A DNA stretch of 64,000 nucleotides from contig JAHJPG010000110.1 of the NCBI GenBank assembly GCA_018819925.1, positions 1 to 64,000 of the forward strand, given 5' to 3'. Shown in pieces: positions 6,304 through 63,466 of the stretch (positions within the stretch are counted from its first letter, which is position 1; every line of letters starts with the position of its first letter). Below the pieces are notes generated by a model. The model saw only the letters and a list, made by a program, of their open reading frames with translations, was not told where the DNA came from and did not search any database. This DNA comes from Pseudomonadota bacterium. GTDB taxonomy: Bacteria; Desulfobacterota; Desulfarculia; Desulfarculales; Desulfarculaceae. The position numbers and the translations under genes are program-made.

Positions 6304-6425
6304 GCGGCACAGCCAGGCGACGGCAGACAAGGCGTCCGGCGAGTGAAGGCCGCAGGCGTAGTGCTAACTACGTCGAGGCTTGAGCGATGCCGGCAACGCA
6401 GGATTCCGTTGCCTGGCGAAGCCGC
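6304..6425. repeat. Short-form dispersed palindromic element, copy A1
   Basis: Imperfect inverted repeat over ~120 bp with central hairpin CGTAGT-GCTA-ACTACG (6357-6372); homologous to copies at 6430, 13292, 38446, 50969 and 62802. Confidence 0.8.
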
Positions 6426-6429
6426 TTTA

Positions 6430-6547
6430 GGCACAGCCAGGCGGCGGCAGACAAGGCATTCGGCGAGCGAAAGCCGCAGGCGTAGTGCTAACTACGTCGA
6501 GGCTTGAGCGCAGCCGATAACGCCGTATGCCGCCGTCTGGCTGCGCC
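6430..6547. repeat. Short-form dispersed palindromic element, copy A2 (tandem to A1)
   Basis: GGCACAGCCAGGCGGCGGCAGAC...GTATGCCGCCGTCTGGCTGCGCC arms; central hairpin CGTAGT-GCTA-ACTACG at 6481-6496. Confidence 0.8.
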
Positions 6548-12736: not shown

Positions 12737-13285
12737 TTAGTTTCGTCCTTTGGGCCAGCGGCGCTTGGCTTTCCGCCAGATCAGGGCCGCGGCTGCCGGC
12801 GGCCCCAGCAACAGGGTTTCCCAGGCCATGGCCATAAGGTCGTGCTTCACGATGGCCCAGGTCAGGGCGTGACGCTTAACATCCGGAAATATAGCATGAT
12901 GGGCCAGCATATACTCCCCGGAAAAGGGCCACAACAAGGGTATTCCAAAGGGGGGCCGCGTGTCCACGTTGAGGTAGTCCAGGACCACGTGGCTCAGGTA
13001 GGCGGCCAGGACCCCCAGAGCCAGCCTGCCGCCGTCCGGCCTTTGCCGCGCCCAGAGCCAGGCCAGCAGCCCGGCCACCGCCGCCGCGGTGATCGAATGA
13101 CTCACTCCCCGGTGCCAGCCGCTCCCCTGCCCCAAGATCAGGCCGGGAATAAAATCCAGGTCGGCCAGCATCCCCATGCCCGCGTATAGGGCCAGGTCCT
13201 TGTAGGGCCCCAGGATGGTGCGCCCGCCGCTGGCCGCGGTCCCGGCGGCCAAGCCGGCCAGGGCGTGTCCCAGGGGGGTGGGCAT
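12737..13285 (-). CDS. Membrane-bound metal-dependent hydrolase (YdjM/DUF457-like)
   Basis: 'MPTPLGHALAGLAAG', 'ADLDFIPGLILGQGSGWHRGVSHSITAAAVAG', 'LSHVVLDYLN'. Confidence 0.75.
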   Translation of the reverse strand: MPTPLGHALAGLAAGTAASGGRTILGPYKDLALYAGMGMLADLDFIPGLILGQGSGWHRGVSHSITAAAVAGLLAWLWARQRPDGGRLALGVLAAYLSHVVLDYLNVDTRPPFGIPLLWPFSGEYMLAHHAIFPDVKRHALTWAIVKHDLMAMAWETLLLGPPAAAALIWRKAKRRWPKGRN

Positions 13286-13291
13286 GGCCTT

Positions 13292-13550
13292 AGCCCGAAT
13301 ATCCCATGGAGGCCGCGCGTCCTGCTGCGCCAGCCGCCGGCATACCGCGTTGCCAGCTGCGCTCGGTCCTTGACGTAGCCCTGGCTACGCCAGCGGACCT
13401 CGCTTGCCGGACGCCTTGTCTGCCGGTGCCTGGCTGTGCAGGGCCCGAATGCAAACCGCACCCCGCTATAGCTAACTGTTTTTTCATGAGGACCGCTTCA
13501 ATTTAAGTTCGTTGCTCACTGCCGCCCAACCCCCATGAAATATCCGGGCT
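13292..13550 (-). repeat. Full-length MITE-like intergenic element, copy B (259 bp, inverted relative to copies C and D)
   Basis: Ends AGCCCGAATATcCCATGGAGG / ...CATGAAATATCCGGGCT; reverse complement aligns over its length with copies at 50969-51226 and 62802-63060; central hairpin CGTAGCC-CT-GGCTACG at 13374-13389. Confidence 0.85.
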
Positions 13551-38445: not shown

Positions 38446-38564
38446 GGCTGGCTGGGCGCGGCTGACTAGGCGTCCGGCGAGCGCGTTCCGGAGGCGTAGG
38501 TAATCCTACGTGGAGGAACAAGCGATGCCGGCAACAACGTCAGGCGCGTCCAGACGGACCTAGC
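38446..38564. repeat. Short-form dispersed palindromic element, copy E (divergent)
   Basis: GGCGTCCGGCGAGCG...CGTAGG-TAAT-CCTACG (38495-38510)...AGCGATGCCGGCAAC...; outer arms imperfectly complementary; sits between converging genes. Confidence 0.65.
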
Positions 38565-49051: not shown

Positions 49052-50917
49052 CTAGTTTTCGAAGAAGCGGCGATGCCACAGGGCGGCGTTCATCAGGGCC
49101 CACAGCACGTGGTTGTGGTTGTGGGTTCCGGCCAGGTGTTCGGCCATGAGCCGGTTCACCGTGGCCGGTTGCAGATATTCGGTGACCAGGGGGCTGGTGG
49201 TCAAGAGCTCGCGCATCACCGGTTGCAGTTGGTCGCGCAGCAGATTCTTGACCGGCAGGGAGTAGCCCTGCTTGCCCCGGAAGGCCACCCGGTCGGGCAC
49301 CAGGCCCCGAATGGCCTGACGCAGGATGTACTTGGTGGTGAAGCCCTTGAGCTTGAACCAGGAAGGCAGGCTGGCCGTAAATTCCACCACTTCGTGGTCC
49401 AGGAAAGGCACCCGCACCTCCAGGGAGGTGGACATGGACATCTTGTCCACCTTCATGAGCACGCTGTCGGCCATGGCCAGCTTTAGGTCCAGATAGACCT
49501 CCCGGTCCAGGCGGTCGCTGGAGTTGCAGTGGGCCAGCACCGAGCGGATGGGCGCGAAGGGGTCGTTAAGGTTGAGCTGGGCCGCGGCCTCGGCGTTGAA
49601 AAGCTCGCCGGCCAGGGCCGGGGGCAGGAAATACTGCCAGCGCAAGTGCTCGCCTTCCCGGGGCAGCACGCAGCCCTCCAGAAAGCGCTTGGCCACGTTG
49701 ATGGCCCCTTTCTTCTGGGGCTGGTCTGGCAGCAGCGAGGCCAGGCGGTGCAGCAGGGGGGCGCAGCCGGGCAGGCGATTCAGGTACCCCGCCGCCTTGG
49801 AGGCCTTGAAGCGGTCGTAGCCCGCGAAGATCTCGTCGCCGCCCTCGCCGGAGAGCACCACGGTCACCGTCTCCTTGGCCTTGCGGCAGATGAGCATCAG
49901 GGGGATGGCCGAGAGGTCGGTCATGGGCTCGTCCAGGTGGTAGACCGCGCTCTGTAAATCCTCCATGGTCAGGCCCTCGATCATCAGCACCGTCTGATCG
50001 GTGCCGTAATACTGGGCCATGTCGTTGGCGTACTCCAGCTCGCTGAAAGTTGGGTCGGGATAGGCGATTGAAAAGCTGCGGATGTGCTCCACCCCCAGCT
50101 GGCGCATCAGGGCCACCACGGTGGTGGAGTCCAGCCCGCCGGAGAGGAACACCCCCAGGGGCACGTCGCTCATCAGGCGGCGCTTGACCGCCAGCCTGAG
50201 CAGGGAGCGCAGCTCCTCCACCGCCTCCTCGGGCCGGGAAAAGCGCGGAGCGAACTTCACGTCCCAATACTGGGTTTCGGTGAAGTTGCCGCTGTCCATG
50301 TCGAAGATGGCGTAGTGGCCTTGGCGTAGCTTGTTCACCCCGGCGAAAAGGGTGCGCGGGGCGGGCACGTATTCGTAGCCCAGATATTGGTGCAAACCGG
50401 GCAGGTCCACCCGGCGCTCCAGGCCGTCCCAGGCCAGCAGGCCCTTGATCTCGTTGCTGAAGATGAGCTTGTTGCCCGCGTGGTGGTAGTAGAGGGGCTT
50501 GATGCCCAGGCGGTCGCGGCCCAGCATGACGCGCCGCCGTTTGCTGTCTAGCACCGCGAAGCAGAACATGCCCATGATGCGTTCGATGACCCCGGGCCCC
50601 CACTGCTCGTAGCCGTGCAGCACCACCTCGGAATCGCTGTCGGAGCGGAACACGTGGCCAGCGTCGATCAACTCCTTGCGCAGATCCAGATAGTTGTATA
50701 TCTCGCCGTTGACCACGATGCGCACGTCGCCATGCTCGTTGACCATGGGCTGGCGGCCTCGCTCAGACAGGTCGATGATGGACAGGCGGGTGTGCCCCAG
50801 GCTGGCCCCGCCGCCCACGTAATCGCCGTGGGCGTCCGGCCCCCGGTGCGCCAGGCGCTCGTTCATGGCCTGGATCAGGCCTTGGTCTTCCCAGCTGAAT
50901 CCGTTGATGCCGCACAT
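49052..50917 (-). CDS. asnB: Asparagine synthase (glutamine-hydrolyzing)
   Basis: 'MCGINGF' N-terminal nucleophile, 'LAHRGPDAHGDYVGGGASLGHTRLSIIDLS', 'VPLGVFLSGGLDSTTVVALM'. Confidence 0.93.
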   Translation of the reverse strand: MCGINGFSWEDQGLIQAMNERLAHRGPDAHGDYVGGGASLGHTRLSIIDLSERGRQPMVNEHGDVRIVVNGEIYNYLDLRKELIDAGHVFRSDSDSEVVLHGYEQWGPGVIERIMGMFCFAVLDSKRRRVMLGRDRLGIKPLYYHHAGNKLIFSNEIKGLLAWDGLERRVDLPGLHQYLGYEYVPAPRTLFAGVNKLRQGHYAIFDMDSGNFTETQYWDVKFAPRFSRPEEAVEELRSLLRLAVKRRLMSDVPLGVFLSGGLDSTTVVALMRQLGVEHIRSFSIAYPDPTFSELEYANDMAQYYGTDQTVLMIEGLTMEDLQSAVYHLDEPMTDLSAIPLMLICRKAKETVTVVLSGEGGDEIFAGYDRFKASKAAGYLNRLPGCAPLLHRLASLLPDQPQKKGAINVAKRFLEGCVLPREGEHLRWQYFLPPALAGELFNAEAAAQLNLNDPFAPIRSVLAHCNSSDRLDREVYLDLKLAMADSVLMKVDKMSMSTSLEVRVPFLDHEVVEFTASLPSWFKLKGFTTKYILRQAIRGLVPDRVAFRGKQGYSLPVKNLLRDQLQPVMRELLTTSPLVTEYLQPATVNRLMAEHLAGTHNHNHVLWALMNAALWHRRFFEN

Positions 50918-50968: not shown

Positions 50969-51226
50969 AGCCCGGATATTTCATGAAGGTTGAGCGGTAA
51001 CTAACAATAAATCAGTTTTTATGCTGTCTTTATGAAAAAAGCGCCCGCCCTATCAAGATGCAGTTTTACCCGAACCCGGCACAGCCAGGCAGCGGCAGAC
51101 AAGGCGACCGGCAAGCGAGGGCCGCAGGCGTAGCCTATGCTACGTCGAGGCCCGAGCACAGCCGGCAACGCGGTATGCCGGTGACTGGCGCAGCCGGACG
51201 CACTGCCTTCATGTAATATCCGGGCT
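50969..51226 (+). repeat. Full-length MITE-like intergenic element, copy C (258 bp)
   Basis: TIRs AGCCCGGATATTTCATGAAGG (50969) / CCTTCATGTAATATCCGGGCT (ends 51226); internal 'TTATGAAAAAAGCG' and central hairpin CGTAGC-CTAT-GCTACG at 51129-51144. Confidence 0.87.
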
Positions 51227-51329: not shown

Positions 51330-52322
51330 TTGAACAAATCCGGCAAAACCTGGCTGCGCATGGGCATTAGCCTGGGGCTATTGCTTCTCCTGCTGTTTTT
51401 CTTCGTGGACCTGAAACAGGCCTGGCGGGCGATCGCGGGGGCCCGTTGGGAATTTCTTCTGCTGCTGTTGGCCGCCTTCACCCTGGACCGGGGGCTGATG
51501 AGCTACAAGTGGCGGCTGCTGCTGGTAAGCCAGGGGTACGCCGCCGGCCACGGCGAGGCGCTCAAGGCTTACTACCTGGCCGCCTTCGCCGGCTCCTTTT
51601 TACCCAGCACCTTGGGGGCCGACGCGGTGCGGGTGAGCCTGTTCTCCCGGCCCGGCCGCCCCAGCCAGGCGGTGGCGGCCAGCATATTCCTGGAGCGGGC
51701 CCTGGGCTTCGTGGCCGCCGCCCTGGCCGCGGTGATCGGCCTGGTTCTGTTGGCCGGCATCACCACCGGGCTGCCCGCCACGTTTTTCTATTGGTCCTTC
51801 GGCCTGCTGGGGGCCGCCTGCCTGGCGGTGGCGCTCTCCTTCAGCGCCTGGGCCGGGCGCTTGCACGCCCACGCCGACCGCCGCTGGCGGGAGAAGAGCC
51901 GCCTTTTGGCCTGGCTGCTGGACTTCGTGGCCGCCTACCACCAGTACCGCAGCCGGCGGGGGGTGTTGCTGTGGTTTTTGCTCCTGTCTTTCATCGAGCA
52001 GGGCGCCCCGGTGATTTTCAACTGGCTGGCCGCCCAGGCCCTTCATCTGGACCTGACCCTGTTGCAGTCGGCGGCGGTGACCCCGGTGGTGTTTTTCCTG
52101 GCCCGCCTGCCGGTGTCCTTTTCCAGCTTCGGGGTGCTGGAGGGGCTGTACGTGGCCTTCTTCAGCCTGGTGGGCATAGGCTCCACCCCGGCCTTCTTGA
52201 TCGGCTTCCTGATCAACCTGGGCTCCATGGCCAGCGCCCTGCCGGCGGTGCCCATGTACCTGCGCGGGGGCATGGGCCGGGCCAAGCCGGAGCCGGACCC
52301 GCCGCTTGACCCCGCCCCCTGA
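51330..52322 (+). CDS. UPF0104 / LPG-synthase-TM flippase-like protein
   Basis: 'YYLAAFAGSFLPSTLGADAVRVSLFSRPGRPSQAVAASIFLERALGF', 'LPVSFSSFGVLEGLYVAFF'. Confidence 0.84.
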   Translation: MNKSGKTWLRMGISLGLLLLLLFFFVDLKQAWRAIAGARWEFLLLLLAAFTLDRGLMSYKWRLLLVSQGYAAGHGEALKAYYLAAFAGSFLPSTLGADAVRVSLFSRPGRPSQAVAASIFLERALGFVAAALAAVIGLVLLAGITTGLPATFFYWSFGLLGAACLAVALSFSAWAGRLHAHADRRWREKSRLLAWLLDFVAAYHQYRSRRGVLLWFLLLSFIEQGAPVIFNWLAAQALHLDLTLLQSAAVTPVVFFLARLPVSFSSFGVLEGLYVAFFSLVGIGSTPAFLIGFLINLGSMASALPAVPMYLRGGMGRAKPEPDPPLDPAP

Positions 52323-62801: not shown

Positions 62802-63060
62802 AGCCCGCATATTTCATGAAGGTTGGTCGGCATCGAACAGCGATTTAATATTGATGCGATCCTTATGAAAAAAGCGTTGGCTTTATCGGGGTGCGGTTTG
62901 TAATCGGACCCGGCACAGCCAGCCGCCGCCAGACAAGGCGTCTGGCAAGCGAGGGCTGCTGGCGTAGCCAGGGCTACGTCGAGGCCCGAGCGCAGCCAGC
63001 AACACGGTATGCCGGCGGCTGGCGCAGCCGGACCCACGGCCTTCATGGAATATGCGGGCT
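62802..63060 (+). repeat. Full-length MITE-like intergenic element, copy D (259 bp)
   Basis: TIRs AGCCCGCATATTTCATGAAGG (62802) / CCTTCATGGAATATGCGGGCT (ends 63060); central hairpin CGTAGCC-AG-GGCTACG at 62963-62978. Confidence 0.87.
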
Positions 63061-63466
63061 AAAACTGGCTTTCCATGGCCCCGTAGGAGCAGGCGGCGAT
63101 ACAGGATTCGCACATTATGCAGTGGGAGGGCTCGAAAACTATCTCACGGCTCACCGGCTCCACTGTGAGCGCGTCGGTGGGGCACACCGCGGTGCAGGCG
63201 GTGCACTGCACGCAAAGCTCACCATAGTGGCGCATCTCCTGGACCATGGGGTCCACCTGCACGCCCTGCTCCTCCAGGTATTCCAGGCCGTCCTTGAGGC
63301 TCTTGGCCGAGCCTTTCAGCTCCATGACGATGCGGCCCTGTTCCCGGGGCACCACCCTGGCCCGCAGGATGTTAACCTCCAGGTCGAAGAGGCGGATGAG
63401 ATTATTAGTGACCGGCTGCTGGATCAGCCGGGGGGGGAAGCTTAGAACGAGCTTTTTTTTGACCAT
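63059..63466 (-). CDS. NIL domain + 2x[4Fe-4S] ferredoxin protein (homocysteine-biosynthesis associated)
   Basis: NIL-like N-terminus 'LVLSFPPRLIQQPVTNNLIRLFDLEVNILRARVVPREQGRIVMELKGSAKSLKDGLEYLEEQGVQV' then 'CVQCTACTAVCPTDAL' and 'CIMCESCIAACSYGAM'. Confidence 0.88.
   Translation of the reverse strand: MVKKKLVLSFPPRLIQQPVTNNLIRLFDLEVNILRARVVPREQGRIVMELKGSAKSLKDGLEYLEEQGVQVDPMVQEMRHYGELCVQCTACTAVCPTDALTVEPVSREIVFEPSHCIMCESCIAACSYGAMESQF

Follow-up and report, generated by a model that had tools for sequence, protein, structure and literature searches.

Copies and structure of the element in the window

The DNA analyzed here (64,000 nt, hereafter the window) carries three copies of a repeat of about 259 bp, which raises the question of whether the repeat is mobile and, if so, which enzyme moves it. 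The earlier note had described three full copies with 21-bp terminal inverted repeats (TIRs). Reading of the sequences and a TIR pattern search agreed on their number, positions and lengths (Table 1), and a repeat search of the window aligned them end to end, as had been claimed, at 74–86% identity. The TIR pattern hit the window six times, precisely at both termini of each copy, whereas shuffled sequence would give 0.11 hits. Copy B lies 6 bp upstream of the ATG of the gene at 12737-13285.

Table 1. Features of the window that bear on the repeat
Feature	Position	Strand	Remark
Copy C, full MITE	50969..51226	+	258 bp; flanked by divergent genes
Copy D, full MITE	62802..63060	+	259 bp; right end provides the stop-codon G of the ferredoxin-like gene
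Copy B, full MITE	13292..13550	-	259 bp; flanked by two minus-strand genes
Left TIR of copy C	50969..50989	+	AGCCCGGATATTTCATGAAGG; IS1380-type end
Right TIR of copy C	51206..51226	-
Left TIR of copy D	62802..62822	+
Right TIR of copy D	63040..63060	-
Left TIR of copy B (element orientation)	13530..13550	-
Right TIR of copy B (element orientation)	13292..13312	+
Palindromic core of copy C	51076..51200	+	CCCGGCACAGCCAG...GGCGCAGCCGGA
asnB-like gene beside copy C	49052-50917	minus	name read from translation, no family search
YbhN-like gene beside copy C	51330-52322	plus	name read from translation, no family search
Ferredoxin-like gene beside copy D	63059-63466	minus	G of its TAG stop is the right end of copy D
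Two tandem stand-alone cores	6305..6541 (6305-6424, 6430-6541)	+	no TIRs

The TIRs stand in inverted orientation at both ends of the element, and 28 aligned elements shared common boundaries, with full-length forms of 256–261 bp and internally deleted forms of 149–226 bp that retained both TIRs. Over the genus, element length ranged from 149 to 355 bp, and full length was nearly constant across species (254–261 bp). The interior consists of an A-rich left segment with the TTATGAAAAAA block and a self-pairing core. The ATGAAAAAA block was present in the copies as previously noted, and the alignment bore out the lack of a conserved ORF; neither a conserved ORF nor a transposase gene was found in the interior of the aligned genus copies, and Rfam gave no match at gathering score for the element. 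The palindromic core, likewise noticed earlier, folded far better than shuffles (z = -7.8 on the plus and -5.5 on the minus strand), and the whole strand was predicted to form one long hairpin. Double changes with pairing kept were observed at 19 of the 69 consensus pairs (e.g., column pairs 7/260 and 145/203), and these may stem partly from two amplified subfamilies. In several copies, internal deletions had taken out the entire core.

Copy number and evidence of movement

When the 258-bp unit was searched against the window's own assembly (G000; 4.03 Mb, 145 contigs), 44 matches were obtained, of which about 20–22 were full length with the same boundaries at the TIRs, as expected from the earlier note. 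The TIR pattern gave 71 hits in this assembly and none for the reversed control. In the congener G003, a recent burst of near-identical derivatives of 323–355 bp (L201-L220) was observed, in which extra sequence was inserted in the core; this assembly was broken by them at dozens of contig ends.

The joined flanks of each window copy were then searched against congeners, and contiguous empty orthologous sites were found for all three copies. Copy C (GGC-CA-[element]-TA-AGCC) corresponded to the empty site GGCTAAGCC in G008, G004, G005 and G007; copy D (TCCA-[element]-TAAAACTGG) to empty GCTAAAACTGG or GTTAAAACTGG; and copy B (CCTTA-[element]-TATCC) to empty CCTAG or CCTAA. The site of copy D was occupied in G007, occupied by an internally deleted form in G004 and empty in G008 and G005, and element copies generally sat at different sites in different species. 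This comparison of loci with and without the insertion, which had been proposed earlier, also defined the target duplication. Because of the empty orthologous sites, the polymorphic occupancy, the TIRs and the target duplication, the label "MITE-like", in the sense of a non-autonomous mobile element, was upheld, and the repeat of the window is, judged from these sequence comparisons, a family of mobile, gene-less elements.

Target site and target duplication

The earlier note had seen no clear target-site duplication; one does exist, and it is centred on TA. In every set analyzed, the outward flank had T at -1 in 80–94% and C or T at -2, and the target is therefore Y-TA-R. Duplication classes were counted over paired elements with TA on both sides. 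Identical 4-mers comprised 32 pairs with CTAG/CTAG, 16 with CTAA or TTAG and two with TTAA; 31 pairs differed at one outer base only, with the inner G/C kept, three more at both outer bases, and two at the inner base only. Inner and outer changes were linked (Fisher p = 0.003, a post hoc value that ignores copy kinship), and the asymmetry between outer and inner changes was strong (p = 1e-7, likewise computed post hoc and ignoring kinship). The element has CC..GG termini. IS1380 and piggyBac have been described with 4-bp duplications and such termini (PMC10045372), and a 5-bp duplication has been described for IS1247 (PMC3281130). The flank classes are explained neither by duplication of TA alone nor by a strict 4-bp duplication.

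The piggyBac transposase is known to carry a donor overhang into the target, and by analogy such a carry-over would yield the observed flank pattern. A broader proposal, which we put forward only tentatively and with less than even confidence, is that one IS1380-type end has given rise to many unrelated MITE families in several phyla, and that the flanks of these families preserve a trace of the transposition chemistry: in Y-TA-R, the outer bases would come from the new site and the inner G/C usually from the donor, as if the excised element carried a 4-nt donor overhang, as piggyBac does. On the donor-overhang reading, if true, IS1380 would work mechanistically as a bacterial counterpart of piggyBac.

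The insertions also showed a preference with respect to reading frames. Where the element follows a TA, its first G completes a TAG, and among the matches listed for the GTDB set upstream ORFs of at least 100 codons ended exactly in this TAG in 44 cases, compared with 12 and 7 for the two remaining frames; in the finished chromosome CP070843 (bin435) the counts were nine against one and none. This preference is most simply explained as the survival of harmless insertions.

Ends of the IS1380 type and the probable transposase partner

Few of the 158 distinct TIR pairs exceeded 600 bp. A transposase-bearing relative with the same TIRs, as the earlier note had suggested looking for, was found in a Blastocatellia MAG (L171 4418-6014), where a 1597-bp element with the same TIR at both ends encloses an IS1380 transposase (PF13701, E = 3e-167; NCBIfam IS1380, 417 bits) with one premature in-frame stop. 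This prematurely stopped element was the only IS with exact ends on both sides. In two further genomes, IS1380 genes adjoined the same TIR (L167 and L146); L146 is a 458-bp internal deletion of an IS1380 element, with about 100 codons kept and the same right end, a MITE in the making. The ends of the plasmid IS1380 elements ISPa33, ISMaq4 and ISPosp7 and of further plasmid members of the family matched the TIR at 12–15 of 17 positions, mostly with YTAG flanks; unnamed relatives with matching ends came from Acidovorax, Azotobacter, Halomonas and Hydrocarboniclastica. The ends of IS1380A and of one Rhizobium IS1380 member did not match the TIR. The similarity between MITE and IS was limited to the 19–22 bp ends.

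A named IS family thus matches the TIRs, an outcome that the earlier note had listed as refuting its view of the element, and the description of the element as "new-looking" has to be divided: it stands for the interior, which is unnamed here, and falls for the ends, which are those of named IS1380 elements. The element appears to represent a new, unusually widespread family with ends already known from IS1380 and an unnamed interior. It shares with the ISPa33/ISMaq4/ISPosp7-like elements the TIRs CCCGGATATTTCA / CCCGGATTTCTCATGA, the YTAG flanks and the CC...GG termini; these IS are about 1.6 kb long and encode a transposase, whereas the window element, at about 259 bp, carries no gene and has an unrelated interior.

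For the genus, a search covering 1.49 Mb of G008 together with the loci examined turned up no intact IS1380 gene bearing these ends; IS1380 gene fragments without recognizable ends were present at L330 and L333 in G000 and at L408 in G008. We infer that the mobilizing enzyme of the window lineage was an IS1380 transposase, once intact there. Other candidates were discarded: the long TIR pairs at L136, L189, L277, L271 and L100 either spanned gaps in scaffolds or bracketed ordinary genes by chance, and none of the PF01609 (IS4/IS5-type DDE) genes had these ends. The PF01609 search also turned up IS1380 remnants.

Distribution beyond the genus

The exact TIR was found in at least 119 stretches of GTDB species genomes, of which a few are expected by chance and single ones may reflect MAG contamination. 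Carriers among the matches listed belonged to Desulfobacterota, Alpha-, Beta- and Gammaproteobacteria, Acidobacteriota and others, and included the cultured Desulfopila aestuarii, Desulfospira joergensenii, Noviherbaspirillum malthae and Guyparkeria. Its occurrence in the phylum was patchy: the TIR was present in 22 of 398 genomes, a few of which had more than 100 sites. In bin435, 134 + 147 TIR sites (about 280) belonged mostly to a 182-bp element with a different interior; interiors bounded by the same TIR differed and were unrelated between hosts, and in the extreme form the two ends overlapped to give a 30-bp palindrome.

Plasmids and phages gave no match to the 258-bp unit. The joined TIR palindrome found nothing in E. 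coli; on plasmids it recovered a copy in Magnetococcus and otherwise only some weak matches attributable to chance. IS630 genes lie 0.9 kb from the Magnetococcus copy, outside its TIRs; an IS630 partner was not supported. Viral contigs gave one chance TIR hit inside a phage gene and no IS1380 relative, and none of the papers searched printed the TIR sequence. An IS630 transposase gene at L252 is adjoined or split by a TIR element (1252-1502).

Proposed mechanism and alternative explanations

The window element is very probably a MITE whose TIRs are those of IS1380-family members like ISPa33, ISMaq4 and ISPosp7, and which depends on an IS1380 transposase supplied in trans. This DDE enzyme would recognize the ends CCCGGATATTTCATGAA..., with G/C outside, excise the element and insert it at Y-TA-R sites, which in G+C-rich genomes would often be TAG or TAA stop codons. 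Insertions in stop codons would be tolerated because the element starts with G, so that the split gene keeps a TAG stop. The gene-less interior would be free to vary, being in the genus an A-rich segment plus a self-complementary core, and whole elements would be shortened through internal deletions. Taken as observed are the shared boundaries, the copy number, the empty sites, the TA-centred duplication, the stop-codon preference, the identity of the ends with those of IS1380 elements and the L146-type deletion derivative; the points against are the lack of an intact partner in the genus sequences searched, the stop in the L171 transposase and the many copies that share only TA, versus the 4–5 bp described.

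Mobilization by an IS630/Tc1-mariner transposase, as for RUP, Correia or ERIC, would account for the TA at the target and for a CCC near the end like that of the CCC-type IS630 of Photorhabdus (PMC6267812), but is very unlikely: IS630 (PF13358) was missing from eight of the nine genus genomes and, among 29 other genomes with the TIR, from 20, one of them the complete bin435 chromosome, and no examined IS630 locus had the ends AGCCCGGATATTTCATGAA, which IS1380 elements do have. ERIC/IRU, Correia/NEMIS and RUP are likewise short, palindromic and intergenic, with a TA target, up to hundreds of copies and an often unknown partner (PMC2229807, PMC10969869). RUP is tied to IS630-Spn1, whereas the window element has ends of the IS1380 type. 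Still less credible is an origin as REP/BIME-like palindromes mobilized by a RAYT (Y1) enzyme, which the bare 30-bp palindromes of the extreme forms recall, since Y1_Tnp (PF01797) was absent from G000, G001, G005 and G011, all element carriers, a GTAG tag was lacking, and the element has two TIRs with a target duplication.

Somewhat better placed, yet still improbable, is a domesticated structured repeat (a DNA cruciform, or an RNA hairpin acting as terminator or in mRNA stability) that transposition once dispersed and that has since been retained for a function. The strong fold, the pairing-preserving double changes, the constant length and the frequent position at gene ends speak for it; the double changes may instead reflect the two subfamilies, copies are missing at orthologous sites, the whole core is deleted in several copies, and other TIR elements have unrelated interiors. 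Domestication, which the earlier note had offered beside mobility, was not supported as the main reading, given that sites differ among species and that the copies of the G003 burst are near-identical. Since the genus copies are of old age and the searches met no intact transposase, the copies may have been co-opted later.

Transposition by an IS1380 enzyme would also relate the element to piggyBac, a eukaryotic superfamily distantly related to IS1380, with 4-bp duplications and CC..GG termini (PMC10045372). The TTAA target of piggyBac resembles Y-TA-R; unlike in piggyBac, TA is all that many copies of the window family have in common on their two sides, the inner base being fixed as G/C. The IS1380 reading would account for a class of intergenic repeats, present in high copy number in uncultured Desulfobacterota and Proteobacteria, that crowd these genomes and fragment their assemblies, and would give those repeats a named transposase family. 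The hundreds of insertions would form a data set on target-site handling by IS1380 transposases, the relatives of piggyBac.

Related repeats

The core of about 120 bp (CCGGCACAGCCAG...CTGGCGCAGCCGG) was also found solo, both as the tandem pair in the window and at L026, L027 and L030; there it lacks TIRs, and similarity between the flanks ends where the core ends. The stand-alone core may have been a structured repeat in its own right that the MITE took up. Window positions 38459-38535 matched part of the core at 75%, with a similar central motif (GGCGTA...TACGTxGAGG). Diverged copies running from the left TIR to the core end, without a right TIR, were seen at L075 362-590 and L081 303-528 (G000 C66 and C57). 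In L333 (G000 C5), the first 95 aa of the minus-strand ORF 1381-1953 were repeated many times in G008 loci, and this stretch looks like another dispersed repeat family. The 182-bp elements L099, L111 and L144 of other Desulfobacterota carry at their symmetry axis a motif like that of the core, CGACGTAC...GTACGCCTCGG, in an interior otherwise unrelated to that of the window element; this likeness may be functional or due to chance.
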